This document shows positions 40,230 through 63,600 of a stretch of 64,000 nt of DNA, in pieces. The stretch lies in the NCBI GenBank assembly GCA_947172415.1, contig OX359189.1, positions 7,516,501 through 7,580,500 of the forward strand. Reading direction: 5' to 3'. The notes under the pieces are model-generated. The model was not told the origin of the DNA. It saw only the letters and a program-made list of their open reading frames with translations, and did no database searches. The number at the start of each line of letters is the position of its first letter. The first letter of the stretch is position 1. This stretch comes from Chondrosia reniformis (Eukaryota; Porifera; Demospongiae; Chondrillida; Chondrillidae). A program made the position numbers and the translations under genes.

Positions 40230-40976
40230 TCAGGGAGTACGGTAGTACTCCCTATGTAGGGATGACGCGGTTTTTTTCGTTTTCCCCATACATCGGTATA
40301 GGAGCAAAATCCCGAAATAGGCCGAAAATCGACAAAACAAGGCTATGTATAGCTAAATATACAATATACATACTCTAAATAGACCTTAAAGGCAAGCGAA
40401 TATGTCCCGCTGGCGAAATAATAAACTTTAAAAATCCCCATTTTCGTCTTCATATTCTTATTCTTCTTCGCCAGCCATAACTAAAAAACTATATAAGCTT
40501 TTGGATTAATTGTTAAACGAAACTATTGCAAATTTTCCGAGCTGTATTCTTTTGTAGAAGCAAGAGCGATAACGCTATTGTTGAGTATGACGGTTTTCAT
40601 GGCCCCAGAGTCAAGGCCTCAATAAATTCGCCATTTTAATGACGTCATTTTCATCGTTTGCCAAACCAAAATGGGTTTAAATACAATCGAATTCCTAGCT
40701 TATGTTCCATAAAAAGTACAGAAACTAGAGAACAATAAAAATTTTCTACAAAAATACTGAAGATGTAGGGATGGCACAAAAAGCACAGAAACAAGAAAGA
40801 GATGTTACACAGTGAAGCATTAGCTATGCATGAATCCTACAAGCAAGGGTGTTGTATGATTCATGCATATATAGCTAATGCTTCACTGTGTAACATCTCT
40901 TTCTTGTTTCTGTGCTTTTTGTGCCATCCCTACATCTTCAGTATTTTTGTAGAAAATTTTTATTGTTCTTTAACAT
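40230..40976. mobile_element. palindromic element(s): GGAGTACGGTAGTACTCC block and foldback
   Basis: 40232-40262 (GGGAGTACGGTAGTACTCCC..GTAGGGATG) resembles 25215-25245. 40730-40972 is a near-perfect hairpin with ~115-bp arms: AAAATACTGAAGATGTAGGG and its inverse, centred near 40852. TGACGTCA, a full CRE palindrome, is at 40640-40647. The block lies upstream of the minus-strand gene at 39071-40036 and may include its promoter. Confidence 0.6.
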
Positions 40977-56100: not shown

Positions 56101-59100
56101 TTTTTATGATGCTCTGTTATATTCATATATAACTGCTATTACATCATAGCCTTTGCACTTGCTCAATACAATTAACTCTCTCTTCACTGATACCATATGC
56201 ACAAAGTTACCATCTCTGTAAGTAATGTCCGAGTTTAGGAAATTCTTGCAATTCAGTGCTATCTTGAAGCATTCTATTGCATATTGATCCACTTGAATAT
56301 TTCCTATATGAACATAGACAGAATAGTATTTCCTTAGTATACATATGTACCATATTGCTGATGAAGACCTCCGGGTCAAAACGTCTTAAAATAGTAAATC
56401 CATGTTGCTGATGCTCATCTTCCCCAGGGTCGAAACGTTTGATCAAGAAACGAAACAGAACTGCGTTTCTAAACATTCAAAAAGTTGAAGGATGTACCAT
56501 CCCAAAGATAAGTTCGACATAGTTAGAAGGAATCCTTATTCTATTATTGCTGGTGCTCAATAAGGCTTTATTCTCATTACGCATCATGTATACAGTACAT
56601 GTAGTAAAATTAACATATCCATTGCTGCCTTTTCTTACCAGTATGAAAATCCAGTATCACTTCATTGTCCACTTTTCTTTTCTTTGCAACTGGTTCATCT
56701 TTTGATTGTGAAAGGGAGGGCCCTTGGGTTTGGCCACTCCCACTTTCTCCTACTGCCACGCCTTCAGTAGGTGTAGTGGTAGTAAACTGTGTTCCAGTAC
56801 TACAGTCTTCCACAAGAACCCAGCAAGTGTTGTCACTAACATCACCTCCCTCTGGAGCTCCCTCACCTAAAAGGGTCAAAGTGACAATCTAACCACATTT
56901 AATCATCATTAATCATTATTAATCATTATTAAAAGGTAAAAGAAGCAATTGCTGGGAATCAAAACCAGGACAACTGGTTATGACCACCAGTGCTCTACCA
57001 CCGAGTAACAAGTGTTACAGCAATGCTTCCCCCTACATATACATATATATTTATATTATTATAAGGGATTACCTTATTAGGTAAGGTATTCTCTGTATAC
57101 ATATACATAGCTGATAACCTATGAAGGGTGGAATTCCCAGAAACAGCTGTCTGGCCCAGTGGAGTAATCCTCATCCAAAGCTCTCACTAGGTTTAGTTCC
57201 CTATAGGCCTTTTACTCTAGATTAGATGTAGCTTGTAAGAAAAATGGTGTGCTAATTACGCATACATTACTTGTGCTTGTATTCATTTGAAGGGACTTAC
57301 CCAGCTGTTGCTTTGAATAATACAGTCCCTTTATTGTACTGTAGTATTCCCATGCCATTTGAAAGTATAGTAAAACTGCCACATAGAAAGGACCGATTGC
57401 TATGTCTGAGCCCCGGGGGAGTTTCTCTAAAAATCCCCATCTTTGTTTGGGCGTTGATTTTGGTCCAATCACTTTGCTCCTAGAGATTTCTCTCCAGCCA
57501 CATTTTCCAGCTATTGTATACATGAGCTCATTGATGGCATCCCAACCAGTTCGCCCATCAAACAAAACTGGAGCTGTAAGGAGAGATACCTACTGTACAA
57601 GGAAATCACAATACAGAGAATATCTTACCTTATATGGTAATCCCCTATAATAATATAAACATATATATTCCCACTGTCCTACATACATACTTAACATTCT
57701 ATGAGCCTCTGAAATTCTAAACCTTAACTGTTGGAAAACATTATATATATGGAATTGAATGTGTGTGTCTAAAGAATGCAAATACACAATCTTTAGAGGT
57801 GCATTGATTTGACACCTCAGTAATACCATATCCTAGTCTGTCACCTCCATCTACGGTATGCATATCTACAAGATACCACTGATTTACCTAACGAGTGTAT
57901 TTAATTCTCTACCTCAACAATTCTACCACCTCCCCACCTCACAACCTCCATCTCCCCACCTCACAACCTCCAACCTCCACCTCACAACCTCCAACCTCCA
58001 CCTCCCCACCTCCCCACCTCACAACCTCCATCTCCCCACCTCACAACCTCTGCCACAGCACTTACTCCTATCTCCTTGTAGGGCCGATCCAGCAATGGCT
58101 GCCGTGTAGTAATTGCCAGTGATCTCAAGCCACTGGCAAAAGTACCCCATCTTGAGGAGGACCTGATGAGGTTCGGGTCTGGCAGCAAATCCTTCTGCCA
58201 ACACATCTCTTGATCCTGTCACAAGGGGGATCACATCCACCACGAGCAGCTTGTGAAGAGGCGTGCACTCCATGGGAGAGGGAGGAGATTCATAAAAACT
58301 TTTACACAGCGTTTCCAAGGCATCAAGCTAAAGAGAAAAGAGATAGAGAAATTAACATTCCTCGTCCTACATTATACTCTGTTTATATAATACACTATAC
58401 ACATACAAGTATAACTACGTATATGCAAACTATATCATGCCAGGAAAGAGAATTCCATTATGCCAAATGGAAAGTCTCAGACAAATAGATGCGTCTATCA
58501 TGATCAAGAGCAATACATCTAATTAGTAAAATGAACTCTAGCTTAATCATATTCATAGACAAGGAACAGAATTTAGACAGAAAATCAACTCTTACGCCTA
58601 TCTTTGGGGCAGTGTGAGGAAACCGTTTGATAATTTCCACCATGGCTTTAGACTTTTTGTAGCTGTCTTTAAACTTGGCAGCACATTGTTGGAGAACCAT
58701 TTTCTGAACCTCCGGAGAGAAATTCTGAAATATATCCATTTTAATCTTCTCCTCGCTACCAATATCTTCAACCAATCCACACACACAGGAAGTCATGTCC
58801 AGGATATATGCATCCAACTTTGGGTGATCCGTAAACTTAGTGCATCTGAGAAGTGAAACAAAATAACGCTGTAAAAGTGACTCATTAACAGACCTTGCAG
58901 CATAAAATCAGGAGGATTAACAGAGAAATTCTTTTTCTCGGATCCAGGGGAAATCACATAAATTATTGGTCTGGTGTTCTTGTAGGAGCAGTGCTACATC
59001 CTCACATGGGATATGCATGATGATGAGGTGTGATGGTGTAGTGTGATGGTGAGGTATGACGGTGAGGTATGATGATGAGGTATGATGGTGAGGAATGACG

Positions 59101-60186
59101 GTGAGGTGTGATGGTGAGGTATGATGGTGAGGTATGATGGTGAGGTATGATGGTGAGGTATGATGGTGAGGTATGATGGTGAGGTATGATGGTGAGGTAT
59201 GATGGTGAGGTATGACAGTGAGGTGTGGAATGTACTAAATGCATGCTGTACTCACAATTCTGCTAATGTTTCTGAAGCATCTTGCAACTCCCGACAGTTA
59301 ATGTGCAACATAAACATGTCCCACTGTAGCAGACACACAAAGATAAACATGTCCCACTGTAGCAGACACACAAAGATAAACATGTCCCACTGTAGCAGAC
59401 ACACAAAGGTAAACATGTCCCACTGTAGCAGACACACAAAGATAAACATGTCCCACTGTAGCAGACACACAAAGGTAAACATGTCCCACTGTAGCAGACA
59501 CACAAAGGTAAACATGTCCCACTGTAGCAGACACACAAAGGTAAACATGTCCCACTGTAGCAGACACACAAAGATAAACATGTCCCACTGTAGCAGACAC
59601 ACAAAGATAAACATGTCCCACTGTAGCAGACACACAAAGATAAACATGTCTCACTGTAGCAGACATACAAAGATAAACATGTCCCACTGTAGCAGACACA
59701 CAAAGGTAAACATGTCCCACTGTAGCAGACACACAAAGATAAACATGTCCCACTGTAGCAGACACACAAAGATAAACATGTCCCACTGTAGCAGACACAC
59801 AAAGATAAACATGTCTCACTGTAGCAGATATACAAAGATAAACATGTCCCACTGTAGCAGACACACAAAGATAAACATGTCCCACTGTAGCAGACACACA
59901 AAGATAAACATGTCCCACTGTAGCAGACACACAAAGATAAACATGTCCCACTGTAGCAGACACACAAAGATAAACATGTCCCACTGTAGTAGACACACAA
60001 TTTAATAAACAACAATATTAGAGAAAAGTGCCCTAGTTGACTATTTACCTGGACATCAAAGTTTTGAGGGTATAGCGACCTTGCTGTAATGATCCAAGCC
60101 TTAGCACCAAATTTATTCTGCGCGCGTAACCTAGCCTTGCATTCTTTAACAACCCAAACACAATCTTCGGTGGAAGCGGAGGCCAT
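53189..60186 (-). CDS. INTS10: Integrator complex subunit 10, 11 exons
   Basis: Exons in order: 60049-60186, 59256-59323, 58596-58845, 58066-58327, 57301-57573, 56639-56866, 56211-56303, 55388-55572, 54837-55011, 54404-54646, 53189-53436; all GT-AG and in frame, 720 aa (human INTS10 is ~710). Matching landmarks: N-terminal AKAWIITARSLYPQNFDVQ, RFPHTAPKIG, GKCGWREI, VAKKRKVDNE, EEWLWLKSFEIDM, TAVGQLIILLQL and TVTRGV near the C-terminus. INTS10 is a helical scaffold subunit of the nuclear Integrator complex that processes snRNAs and attenuates RNA polymerase II; it pairs with INTS13/INTS14. Oddities: minisatellites fill introns 1, 2 and 4, and intron 1 repeats are copies of the exon 2 acceptor. 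Promoter shared with the gene at 60297. Confidence 0.92.
53710..53997. repeat. three tandem 96-bp repeats in INTS10 intron 10
   Basis: TTGATAATATAATAGGATCC starts at 53710, 53806 and 53902. The unit length is a multiple of three and one minus-strand frame stays open through all copies (KLDPIILSI...), but it has no resemblance to a known domain. Regarded as a simple tandem duplication. Confidence 0.8.
55991..56044 (+). ncRNA. hammerhead-like motif, family A, damaged core
   Basis: CAGGGTCA ... AAGAAACAGCTGTCTGACCC keeps a perfect 6-bp stem I (GGGTCA/TGACCC), GAAAC and the GTC site, but the first box is CTATATGA instead of CTGATGA. In INTS10 intron 7. Probably inactive. Confidence 0.4.
56342..56600. 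mobile_element. family C repeat with hammerhead-like cores
   Basis: Plus strand 56350-56395: TTGCTGATGA-A-GACC-TCCG-GGTC-AAAACGTC, followed by AGTAAATCCATGTTGCTGATG and a second decayed core ending GGGTCGAAACGTTT. The right part (TTGAAGGATGTACCATCCCAAAGATAAGTTCGAC, spaced) matches the inverted TIR at 40.98-41.03 kb. The closing block GCTCAATAAGGCTTTATT recurs at 63.6 kb. Confidence 0.5.
56895..57022 (-). mobile_element. tRNA-derived SINE fragment or tRNA pseudogene
   Basis: Minus strand: ACTCGGTGGTAGAGCA (A-box-like), ACTGGTGGTCATAACCAGT (arm/loop), GGTTTTGATTCCC (B-box-like), then an AT-rich tail of AATAATGATT repeats. The anticodon loop lacks U33, so it is not a working tRNA. In INTS10 intron 5. 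Confidence 0.5.
57111..57222 (+). repeat. family A repeat, plus orientation
   Basis: GGGTGGAATTCCCAGAAACA followed by GCTGTCTGGCCCAGTGG and, downstream, TTTAGTTCCCTATAGGCC. This is the inverse of the copies at 9.2, 14.5 and 17.2 kb. The first core box is disrupted (CTGATAACCTATGA), so it is dead as a ribozyme. Confidence 0.5.
57930..58058. repeat. CCACCT/CACAACCTCC minisatellite next to INTS10 exon 4
   Basis: Imperfect repeats of CCACCTCACAACCTCCA abut the donor of exon 4 (58061-58065). On the transcribed strand they are G/A-rich. Confidence 0.7.
59020..59225. repeat. GGTGAGGTATGAT minisatellite in INTS10 intron 2
   Basis: About 15 copies of a 13-bp unit GATGGTGAGGTAT with small variants. 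On the INTS10 strand it is a CATACCTCACCAT pyrimidine-rich run just after the exon 2 donor (59251-59255). Confidence 0.8.
59311..60003. repeat. 21 x 33-bp minisatellite made of INTS10 exon 2 acceptor copies
   Basis: Unit on the minus strand: TTTGTGTGTCTGCTACAG followed by TGGGACATGTTTATC, i.e. polypyrimidine tract, AG and the first ~15 nt of exon 2. 33 bp is 11 codons, and in the exon frame the unit reads WDMFIFVCLLQ without a stop until a variant copy near 59650 turns TGG into TGA. It begins at the true exon 2 acceptor (59324-59326). Frames on the other strand also stay open, as expected for a 33-mer, and are not genes. Confidence 0.85.
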
Positions 60187-60296
60187 TTTATTTACATGAC
60201 GTCATTGGGACGTTCCCTTCGTTTTGTATACTGTATATATACGTATATAAAATCAGGTGTATATATTCAATGTAAACAAAGATTTACCGTCGAGAC
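60187..60296. promoter_or_regulatory. bidirectional promoter INTS10 / F-box-GTPase
   Basis: Only 110 bp separate the two divergent start codons. A full CRE palindrome TGACGTCA lies at 60197-60204 with ATTGG (inverted CCAAT) next to it, and GGCCATTTT (YY1-like on the INTS10 strand) overlaps the INTS10 ATG. A TATATATACGTATATAA tract follows at 60233. Confidence 0.6.
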
Positions 60297-62943
60297 GTGG
60301 ACAGGTGGCTGATGTACACTTGTCAGGCCAGCATTACCTCCATTAGGAGGTCATCACAATCCTCGTGTGGCCAGGAAGTACGCGTCTTTAGCCCGACTAT
60401 ACGTGAAGAGGTTGAAACTCGCTCAGTGTGTGCTGAAGTGAGATTTGATGGCGACCAGGATCACGCGAAAGAAATTTACTATCGTTGCACCACGTCTTGG
60501 TCTAGCAAGGTCGTGTATCCGATGCACTCGCTGACCTGTGAAAGTGTTATTTCAGAGGAGCTCGAGGAGGCGACAGCGCCAGACGCCGAATTGGCTACAT
60601 CCTTGTCAGATCTACCAGTAGAGGTAGGCAAAGTTATCGTAAATGTAATAAAGTGGACCCTTCTCCCAAGGCCCACCCCTCTAGTGGACCCTTCTCCCAA
60701 GCCCCACCCCTCTAGTGGACCCTTCTCCCAAGCCCCACCCCTCTAGTGGACCCTTCTCCCAAGGCCCACCCCTCTAGTGAACCCTTCTCCCAAGCCCCAC
60801 CCCTCTAGTGGACCCTTCTCCCAAGGCCCACCCCTCTAGTGGACCCTTCTCCCTAGGCCCACCCCTCTAGTGGACCCTTCTCCCAAGCCCCACCCCTCTA
60901 GTGGACCCTTCTCCCAAGGCCCACCCCTCTAGTGAACCCTTCTCCCAAGGCCTACCCCTCTAGTGGACCCTTCTCCCAAGCCCCACCCCTCTAGTGGACC
61001 CTTCTCCCAAGCCCCACCCCTCTAGTGGACCCTTCTCCCAAGGCCCACCCCTCTAGTGGACCCTTCTCCCAAGCCCCACCCCTCTAGTGGACCCTTCTCC
61101 CAAGCCCCACCCCTCTAGTGGACCCTTTTCCCAAGGCCCATCCCTCTAGTGGGATCCATCCGCCTCTGTATACTTGTAGCAACCGACAGCTACAAGCGCA
61201 TCCTACTAGTAACATTGTGAAAGGAAAATGAATTGAGTACACTATACAAAAAACAGTTTATAGGCTATTCAAAAGCAATTACCGTACAAAATATGTTATT
61301 TCCTTAGTTCTTCTGAATCAACATATATAGACTATTATATACTACATACGTGTGTGAATACAAATTGAAAATCAAACCACAAGTAATTAGTCAAACATCA
61401 TTATATCACCTACACAATTTTCACCGTAAAACTGTACATAGAGCCCGGTTAACTTATGTTCAGCATTTCTACCAATTGCAGGCATTACCAGTTACATATC
61501 TGGAATATTAGTCAGTATATGGTTGTACTTACAGCTTACCCTGTAATTATAAACTGCATTTGTACTGTAATAGCCATTTAAATTGTTATATTTGGGCTCT
61601 GATTGGTAATTTAATATCTTTGTGGATGGATGCACCCCTTAATGAGCAGGTATAGCGTATGTATGTTTCCCACAATAGAGTGTGGTCATGGGACTGTACT
61701 CCTCTTTCAATTGTTTCAATTCTCCTAAAGTTACTCCCCTATATTATACTATTGAAGAATATACCTTCCTCCCCTTAATGTCCCAATTCTGATTTGCACC
61801 AAAGTAAATTGGAATGGATTTCAAATCTAAACCTGTGTTTACATTTCATTCATAAATAACCTATTATCAATATATTGTTATTAATATATTATATTACTGG
61901 AGGTTTAGCATTGAATTACTTAAAGGTATGCCTTAAATGTGGTTCAATATATTTCTGTCATAGAAGGTAATGTTTTGAAGGATTATTGATTATTTATTGT
62001 GTTCATAATGGTAAATGGTAGAGCATCAGTAACACAAGTATATTAGTGTTTTGTGAATGTGTTGGAAGGAATACAACTCTGTACATTTCTACAGGTGCTG
62101 TCAACTATACTGATGGATGTTTCACTGCAAGATCTTCAAGGCTGCCTCCGGGTCTGTAAGCTTTGGAACTACATCATTACGTCCCAGCAATTTTGGAGGA
62201 GCAAATGTGTCAAACAGTATTGGGTGGAGTGTTGCTATGGCAATGATGGCTCTGTACAGCTGCCATGTGTTTTTCCAACATGGTACGATTACTTCTTCAA
62301 GTTGTCTGATGTAGATTTGAGATCAAAGATGACACAAGTGAAGGTGGTAACAAAACTCAAATCTTGGTATAAAAATGAAACAAATCCTTCCATTGATGTT
62401 TTTCTAGTAGGCGATTCAGGAGTAGGAAAGACAGCTCTCTTTACTCGGCTGCTTGGATTGGTTGACCAGCATTTCTGCTATAAAACAACAAATGCTAAGC
62501 TTCATCCGACCTCTGGAGTGGCCTTTTACACTTACGGAGCTCAAGAGCCCTCAAAGAGAACAGATGAAACATTACCAAACATCCGTTGCACAGTTTGGGA
62601 TAATAGTGGTTCTTCGTCAGCAAGGGGTATCCTCTCTAGTTACAGAAGGGGACACTGTTTTGCAGTCTTCTACGATATCACATCTTATCGATCCTTCCTG
62701 AATGTGCCCAACTGGTTGAACCACATTAGAAACACGTGTTCTTCTACAGTTCCCATTCTGATTGTGGGCACAAAGATGGACCTGTTTGAGCAGAGACAGG
62801 TCACTTGGATGGAAGGCGCCTCCTTTGCAGAGTCCCAAGGGTTGTCCTTCATAGAATGTACTGCAAAGGATATGCTGAATGTTGATGTAATAGCATCTTA
62901 CCTTGCTACAAGTGGGTATGACTTTCAAAGGAATATTGTGTAA
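60297..62943 (+). CDS. F-box plus Rab/Ras-like GTPase fusion protein
   Basis: Exons 60297-60623 and 62095-62943 join in phase 0 to 391 aa. Residues 1-~104 have no recognised domain. The F-box spans the splice junction: LPVE|VLSTILMDVSLQDLQGC, then VCKLWNYIITSQQFW. The GTPase domain (~residues 215-385) has the P-loop GDSGVGKTAL, switch I PTSGVAF, DxxG as WDNSGS, GTKMD in place of NKxD, and ECTAKD (SAK-like). The catalytic Gln after DxxG is Ser, and there is no C-terminal prenylation Cys. F-boxes bind Skp1 in SCF ubiquitin ligases, so it may be a substrate adaptor controlled by, or targeting, a GTPase, analogous to SOCS-box Rab40. Start: first ATG downstream of the divergent promoter; the N-terminal part is less certain. 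Confidence 0.82.
60651..61155. repeat. 31-bp minisatellite at the 5' end of the F-box/GTPase intron
   Basis: About 16 copies of a unit starting AGTGGACCCTTCTCCCAAG and ending CCACCCCTCT. It begins 27 bp after the exon 1 donor (60624). Being 31 bp it shifts frame each copy, so intron retention would end translation soon. Confidence 0.85.
61156..62094. other. rest of the F-box/GTPase intron
   Basis: AT-rich, nothing coding or repeated recognised apart from ATTA-rich tracts; ends in TACATTTCTACAG acceptor. Confidence 0.4.
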
Positions 62944-63420
62944 CTTTTTCATCCATATTTGAAATCTTGTGGATTATAATCACTTTACGTAATTAACACT
63001 TTATTATTTAACTATGTATGTATATTGCTTCAATTTAATAAGGATATCTGTTTGATTTAAATTTAAATCCCATATGCAACTAGGCTATATCTTAATTATA
63101 TATGTGTTATGTGTTAAATCATGGCCTGTCTGTATAAGTATTCAACATCAGCCTTCTTGACCATTAGCCTGTTCCTTGCTCTAAAGAATAGTAAACCGCT
63201 ACACTTCTCAACTGTTTCTATATCCCTGAGATACAGTACCAAACGCTGCTCAGACTTGATACTCTTGTTGGGCAATATGTAGGACTAATATATAGAAAGT
63301 GAAACAATAATTGTATCAAAGTGAAATACATAATAGGTTTTATAGTTTACTAACATATAAAATGTATATGTACTTGGTAAGACATGGAGGAATAAGGAGT
63401 GCTTGTTGCGATCATTATGA
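62944..63420. other. 3' flank of the F-box/GTPase gene
   Basis: No feature recognised; AT-rich, no clear AATAAA close to the stop. Confidence 0.3.
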
Positions 63421-63423
63421 GAA

Positions 63424-63600
63424 TAAAAGCCTTATTGAGCATCAGCAACATGAATTTACTATATAATTCTGGACGTTTCGACCCGGAGATCTTCATCAGC
63501 AATATACGTATCATCATATATTGCTGATGAAGACCTCCAGGTTGAAACATACAGAATTAGTAAATTCATGTTGCTGACGCTCAATAAGACTTTATTATTG
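63424..63600. mobile_element. palindromic family C element with two opposed hammerhead-like cores
   Basis: Left arm TAAAAGCCTTATTGAGCATC ... and right arm GCTGACGCTCAATAAGACTT are inverted around ~63508. Minus strand 63465-63502: TTGCTGATGA-A-GATC-TCCG-GGTC-GAAACGTCC, with complete CUGAUGA, GAAA and GUC. Plus strand 63521-63560: TTGCTGATGA-A-GACC-TCCA-GGTT-GAAACATAC. Stem III would be only the ACGT palindrome, as in dimer-active hammerheads of Penelope-like elements and retrozymes. Confidence 0.6.

Follow-up and report, generated by a model that had tools for sequence, protein, structure and literature searches.

A gene of the sponge Chondrosia reniformis is predicted to join, across two exons, an F-box to a Rab-like G domain, as suggested by Pfam domains, GTPase motifs and a test of the splice junction, and the pairing in one two-exon gene put forward in a preliminary description of this DNA is in this respect borne out. 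All told it has the look of a genuine if uncommon gene fusion, and not of a system new in kind. The reading that we favour, with somewhat less than even confidence, is a lineage-restricted fusion gene encoding an F-box protein, whose Rab-like G domain would serve as a GTP-loaded, cytosolic target-binding half; the pairing resembles FBXO4 and the Rab40 family and may have a separate origin. The gene lies in the window analysed here, a stretch of 64,000 nucleotides (7516501-7580500 of contig C1), and the genome scanned around it comprised 117,379,552 bases in 15 contigs; the assembly odChoReni1.1 is described in the available part of its report as 14 chromosomes plus the mitochondrial genome (PMC12181767).

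Gene structure and the split F-box

60312..60623, + strand: exon 1 of the fusion gene, 104 codons counted from the first in-frame ATG
60624..62094, + strand: intron, GT-AG, phase 0
60652-61152: minisatellite in the intron, 31 bp x 16.2
62095..62943, + strand: exon 2, with the rest of the F-box, the linker, the Rab-like G domain and the stop codon
60606..62214, + strand: F-box, residues about 98-144, interrupted by the intron

Spliced together, the two exons give a product of 386 aa, and exon 2 lies within an open frame of 298 codons. The two exons, the GT after 60623, the AG before 62095 and the length of 386 aa stand as first described, while the start moves from 60297 to 60312, the first in-frame ATG past an upstream stop; by eye, its start-codon context looks weak. 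Exon 1 contributes about 97 residues free of any Pfam domain and then the beginning of the F-box (SDLPVE). Just 3' of the gene, an imperfect inverted repeat resembling a foldback element (63420-63590) was noticed by eye.

The F-box expected from the preliminary description was recovered in the spliced product above the curated cut-offs of both PF12937 (2.3e-10, residues 98-143, 40.5 bits; cut-off 24.3) and PF00646 (2.8e-08, 33.8 bits; cut-off 20.5), which places the product among the F-box proteins. Exon 2 alone matched PF12937 at 1.7e-5 with 24.9 bits, and no Pfam family matched the isolated exon 1 open frame (60276-60746); the weaker match of exon 2 suggests that the missing start of the F-box comes from exon 1. 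By these scores the intron interrupts the F-box, which becomes whole only on splicing, and the 15.6 bits that splicing adds are the strongest sequence evidence for the 60623/62095 junction and the best short of a transcript. A second look at the junction used an F-box profile of vertebrate FBXO4, for which 25 of the 26 rows of A1 were taken, all but P0029, whose F-box is divergent. When exon 1 was shuffled 500 times, a single shuffle equalled the score of the real sequence, and of the 1819 GT donors tested on the + strand of the window the one at 60623 came third, at absolute scores that are low (2.0 spliced, -0.5 for exon 2 alone).

Motifs of the G domain

62389..62940, + strand: Rab-like G domain, residues 203-386, by PF00071, Rab11A PDB match and predicted fold
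62410..62433, + strand: G1 P-loop, GDSGVGKT
62506..62526, + strand: G2 in switch I, PTSGVAF, with its Thr aligned to the switch I Thr of Rab11A
62596..62613, + strand: G3, WDNSGS, Asp and Gly retained, Ser in place of the catalytic Gln
62767..62784, + strand: G4, GTKMDL, of the TKxD type
62854..62868, + strand: G5, ECTAK

The Ras domain predicted earlier was found over its curated cut-off in the spliced protein (PF00071, 1.2e-29, residues 206-370, 103.4 bits; cut-off 21.6) and, with motifs G1 to G5 and Ser instead of the catalytic Gln, the domain is a Ras-type G domain of the Ras superfamily. Two of the losses first proposed are real: Ser occupies the Gln position of G3, and the last 10 residues hold no Cys, so that the C-terminal prenylation Cys of the Rab family is absent. 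To call the domain 'degenerate' was too strong, because G1, the G2 Thr, the G3 Asp and Gly, G4 and G5 are all present. G4 does read TKMD, as first stated, but we rejected it as a mark of decay or of an impaired GTPase, since four further GTPases of this genome that look ordinary in other respects (L003, L012, L013 and L014) share TKxD, all with the standard WDTAGQE; with G4 sought as N or T followed by K or Q, TKxD was found in five of the nine distinct genome GTPases printed, the fifth being L017. This last small GTPase (G000:C6:5307400-5308300) combines TKxD with its own Gln to Ser change (WDTVGSEE).

Rnd proteins also carry Ser at the catalytic Gln position. Their lack of cycling is put down, in the accessible part of PMC13236570, to the Gly12 position. 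GTP hydrolysis by the sponge G domain is likely slow or absent. We take the names RabF1-RabF5 to apply to stretches of this domain, of which those like RabF3 to RabF5 are present and those of RabF1 and RabF2 are altered; because of these alterations and of extra residues in the switch I region and the linker, the Rab effector surface may not be conserved.

Relatives of the fusion protein

The best PDB matches of the protein were Rab11A chains (2.2e-22), and the best 60 of the 688 matched PDB chains were all named Rab. The predicted G domain fold matched Rab and Ras chains, with structural matches mixing Rab, Ral and Ras, and the best 50 of 1917 rows and the best 50 entries in the fold searches were small GTPases; FBXO4 was absent from these same best rows, which excludes nothing. 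Both structure predictions modelled exon 2 and omitted exon 1 (mean pLDDT 61.7 and 63.6), and their F-box part is of low confidence: in the first model residues 1-95 of exon 2 fall under pLDDT 50, and in the second the block means for residues 1-40 lie between 42 and 53. In a tree of 14 G domains the query was not placed among the Rabs; it sat on a long branch (2.89) that meets the long branch of RABL3. The closest paralogue found in the genome was L003, which is Rab39-like by its best PDB match.

No homologue with both F-box and GTPase was found in 5.8 billion proteins by searches that need shared five-residue words, cover lengths of 0.55 to 1.75 times the query and could, by our estimate, overlook relatives whose identity is under about 40 to 50%. 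The full-length search returned two proteins at E <= 0.001 among 2002 candidates and the search with residues 96-380 three at E <= 10 among 638 candidates. One match, P0001, is the window's own exon 2 product. Another, P0002 (34% identity to the query), is an EukProt protein of 528 aa in which an aspartyl/asparaginyl hydroxylase-type domain is fused to a Rab-like GTPase. P0123 (E 0.083 to the query) has a RABL3 PDB match of 3.2e-70 and Ser at the Gln position. A Pfam scan found no F-box in either P0002 or P0123.

The genome holds at least 25 PF12937 matches (the one F-box family counted) and at least 150 Ras matches (150 listed of 152, with 150 of 331 candidates scored). Among these listed matches, the fusion gene alone of the 25 has one of the 150 less than 13 kb away; in the next nearest pair, on opposite strands, the distance is 13,952 bases. 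The genome also has matches to the Skp1 and cullin families. Two Skp1-family loci lie about 300 kb apart on C2 (G000:C2:3736218-3736814 and C2:4035494-4036092), and in both the match comes as two pieces with identical profile positions. No Rab/F-box fusion was recognised in the literature from titles and abstract openings, a scope that has most subscription journals outside it and leaves absence unproven.

The putative promoter region and the INTS10 neighbour

60187..60311, strand not assigned: CpG-rich stretch between the two start codons, putative bidirectional promoter
60197-60204: TGACGTCA palindrome between the INTS10 and fusion gene start codons

On the minus strand, head-to-head with the fusion gene, lies Integrator subunit 10 (INTS10), whose exon 1 matches PF21045 (2.9e-07, 29.5 bits; cut-off 26) and whose start codon at 60186 is 126 bp from the fusion gene ATG. 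The observed/expected CpG ratio falls from 1.79 in this gap (7 CpGs in 126 bp) to 0.95 in exon 1 and 0.33 in exon 2, against 0.42 for the whole window. The TGACGTCA palindrome, presumably CRE/ATF-like, has one further copy in the window (40640-40647). From its composition and position the CpG-rich gap would be a bidirectional promoter for INTS10 and the fusion gene, and expression of the fusion gene is accordingly likely, a further exon upstream less so. A further minus-strand open stretch (58458-58907) may, by eye, be more of INTS10; a Pfam scan of it gave no family over cut-off. The interval from there to 60186 contains two arrays, one of 33 bp x 20.9 (59310-60000) and one of 13 bp x 16 (59017-59224).

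Comparison with FBXO4

The nearest counterpart in architecture is FBXO4 (Fbx4) of vertebrates, which like the sponge protein has an F-box and then a small-GTPase-like domain, the latter described in the accessible text of PMC7086354 as an 'atypical small GTPase domain', by way of which FBXO4 acts on TRF1. Both proteins, as far as FBXO4 is described in accessible text, run from F-box through linker to a C-terminal domain, which in FBXO4 binds the substrate, and the lengths are alike (387 aa in FBXO4, 386 aa in the sponge). The sponge product thus shows the F-box followed by a small-GTPase fold that characterises FBXO4, for which structures have been solved (PDB 3l2o, 3l82 and 9jkb).

The G-like domains differ. 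FBXO4 lacks a P-loop motif at the aligned place, where MAFFT sets FGPGLEELNTSL or similar in the vertebrate rows, whereas the sponge domain is Rab-like with G1, G4 and G5 intact. None of the three FBXO4 rows scanned matched the Pfam Ras family, one having a weak Arf match (0.035), and the C-terminal half of human FBXO4 gave weak PDB matches to Arl3 (0.00022) and Arl2, with no Rab chain among the 31 PDB matches of human FBXO4 at E <= 1.

Such sequence similarity as was detected lay in the F-box. BLASTP aligned it with 19 of 65 residues identical (E 0.001), and hhalign, run between A1 (26 rows) and the complete sponge protein, returned the F-box only, at a probability of 13%; with two shorter sponge pieces it gave nothing useful. 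MAFFT pairs the stretch before the first strand (sponge VVTKLKSW with FBXO4 AVTSFLHS or like). Profiles from 25 of the 26 rows were matched as well or better by 567 of 1000 shuffles for the linker and 467 of 1000 for the helix plus first strand, and the G-like domain profile, which misses the last part of FBXO4 because of a short reference row, returned no query score, leaving its shuffle count uninformative; the test is low-powered, as none of seven control GTPases (Rab, Rho, Ras) exceeded 0.8 bits with the three profiles. Outside the F-box, neither hhalign nor these vertebrate-only profile tests, all of little power, picked up any similarity to FBXO4. Against the genome, human FBXO4 gave no candidates and shark FBXO4 one F-box match (E 0.6) in a gene whose sequence is not FBXO4-like, both in searches that are insensitive because genes match exon by exon. 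We favour, on these comparisons, a fusion of F-box and GTPase independent of FBXO4.

Proposed function and rival explanations

In the favoured reading, the F-box would dock on Skp1-Cul1, both families being present in the genome. The G domain would bind nucleotide and, if hydrolysis is impaired, stay largely GTP-loaded, so that its switch surface could hold proteins normally recognising active Rabs, which would then be ubiquitinated. Without a lipid anchor the protein would act in the cytosol, in a mode like Rab40-Cul5 or RhoBTB-Cul3 but via an SCF route. That an SCF receptor is here itself a Rab-type GTP-binding protein, with its GTP state or permanent loading setting the targets and with an independent origin in the sponge lineage, is possible but on the whole rather unlikely. 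The sponge protein keeps nucleotide-binding motifs where FBXO4 is without them, and, if expressed, it would permit a direct test of GTP gating an F-box substrate receptor.

The main rival is an FBXO4-like scaffold, in which the G domain would be a mere substrate-binding fold with nucleotide irrelevant. To our knowledge FBXO4 binds no nucleotide, and its matching pair of domain types in matching order, its similar length of 387 aa and the loss of the catalytic Gln in the sponge all speak for this reading; we nevertheless think it unlikely, because P-loop, G4 and G5 are intact in the sponge protein against FGPGLEELNTSL or like in vertebrate FBXO4, and the three FBXO4 rows scanned had no Pfam Ras match and at most the weak Arf match. 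FBXO4 is also invoked if the gene is the sponge FBXO4 orthologue with an ancestral GTPase kept, vertebrate FBXO4 having decayed from such a protein. Domain order, similar length, the MAFFT pairing before the first strand and the lack of an FBXO4 match outside the F-box in the (insensitively searched) genome agree with this, but the profile comparison weakly recovers the F-box alone, the linker profiles do no better than shuffles (with controls equally low and little power), and human FBXO4 leans weakly to Arl3 and Arl2 with no Rab among its 31 PDB matches; this orthology seems to us a slim prospect, slimmer than a self-limiting GTPase.

In that last case, itself improbable, the F-box in cis would get a constitutively GTP-bound G domain degraded, and turnover rather than hydrolysis would set output. 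F-box proteins usually target other proteins, which counts against it, while the Gln to Ser change in G3 fits. So does the fast turnover that the accessible part of PMC13236570 reports for atypical, constitutively active small GTPases, in which degradation limits the signal. Least probable of all we hold that this is not one working gene but two neighbouring stretches or a decaying copy without a spliced mRNA. The failure to find a homologue with both domains in 5.8 billion proteins and the weak-looking start-codon context would suit such an artefact or relic, but the split F-box completes across the junction, exon 2 lies in its 298-codon open frame, and the gene shares CpG-rich DNA with INTS10.

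Comparison with other known systems

Rab40 had been regarded as the only close analogue, a view that has to be given up, as FBXO4, with its F-box and atypical small-GTPase domain, and ARF/F-box fusions also exist. Like the sponge protein as proposed here, Rab40 is a Rab-type GTPase within a cullin ligase. Its SOCS box, however, stands after the G domain, whereas the sponge F-box stands ahead of it, and the sponge protein gave no Pfam match to a SOCS box at E <= 1, so that this feature of Rab40 is lacking. FBXO8 combines an F-box with Sec7 and is likewise tied to small-GTPase biology, but through an exchange-factor domain instead of a GTPase. RABL3 (PDB 6vih) has no F-box; the RABL3-like P0123 has Ser for the catalytic Gln, as in the sponge protein, but matched the query at only E 0.083, where Rab11A reached 2.2e-22 in a PDB search of far smaller size. 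RhoBTB is Rho-type, with a BTB adaptor and a domain order unlike that of an F-box-GTPase.

ARF-family/F-box fusions are listed, in the available text of PMC8358228, among multidomain forms that are generally lineage-specific; they pair a small GTPase with an F-box as the sponge protein does, but the GTPase is ARF rather than Rab, and the likeness is by description only. The accessible part of PMC13236570 reports that Rab40b-Cul5 ubiquitinates Rap2a and that RhoBTB is an atypical GTPase in a Cul3 ligase, both being precedents for the sponge protein as proposed here. If the sponge gene is expressed, it would be a further case of a small GTPase drawn into a cullin ligase, here a Rab-like one and via Skp1-Cul1, and a Rab-type SCF receptor of this kind would be a further route, beside Rab40-Cul5 and RhoBTB-Cul3, for building a small GTPase into such a ligase.
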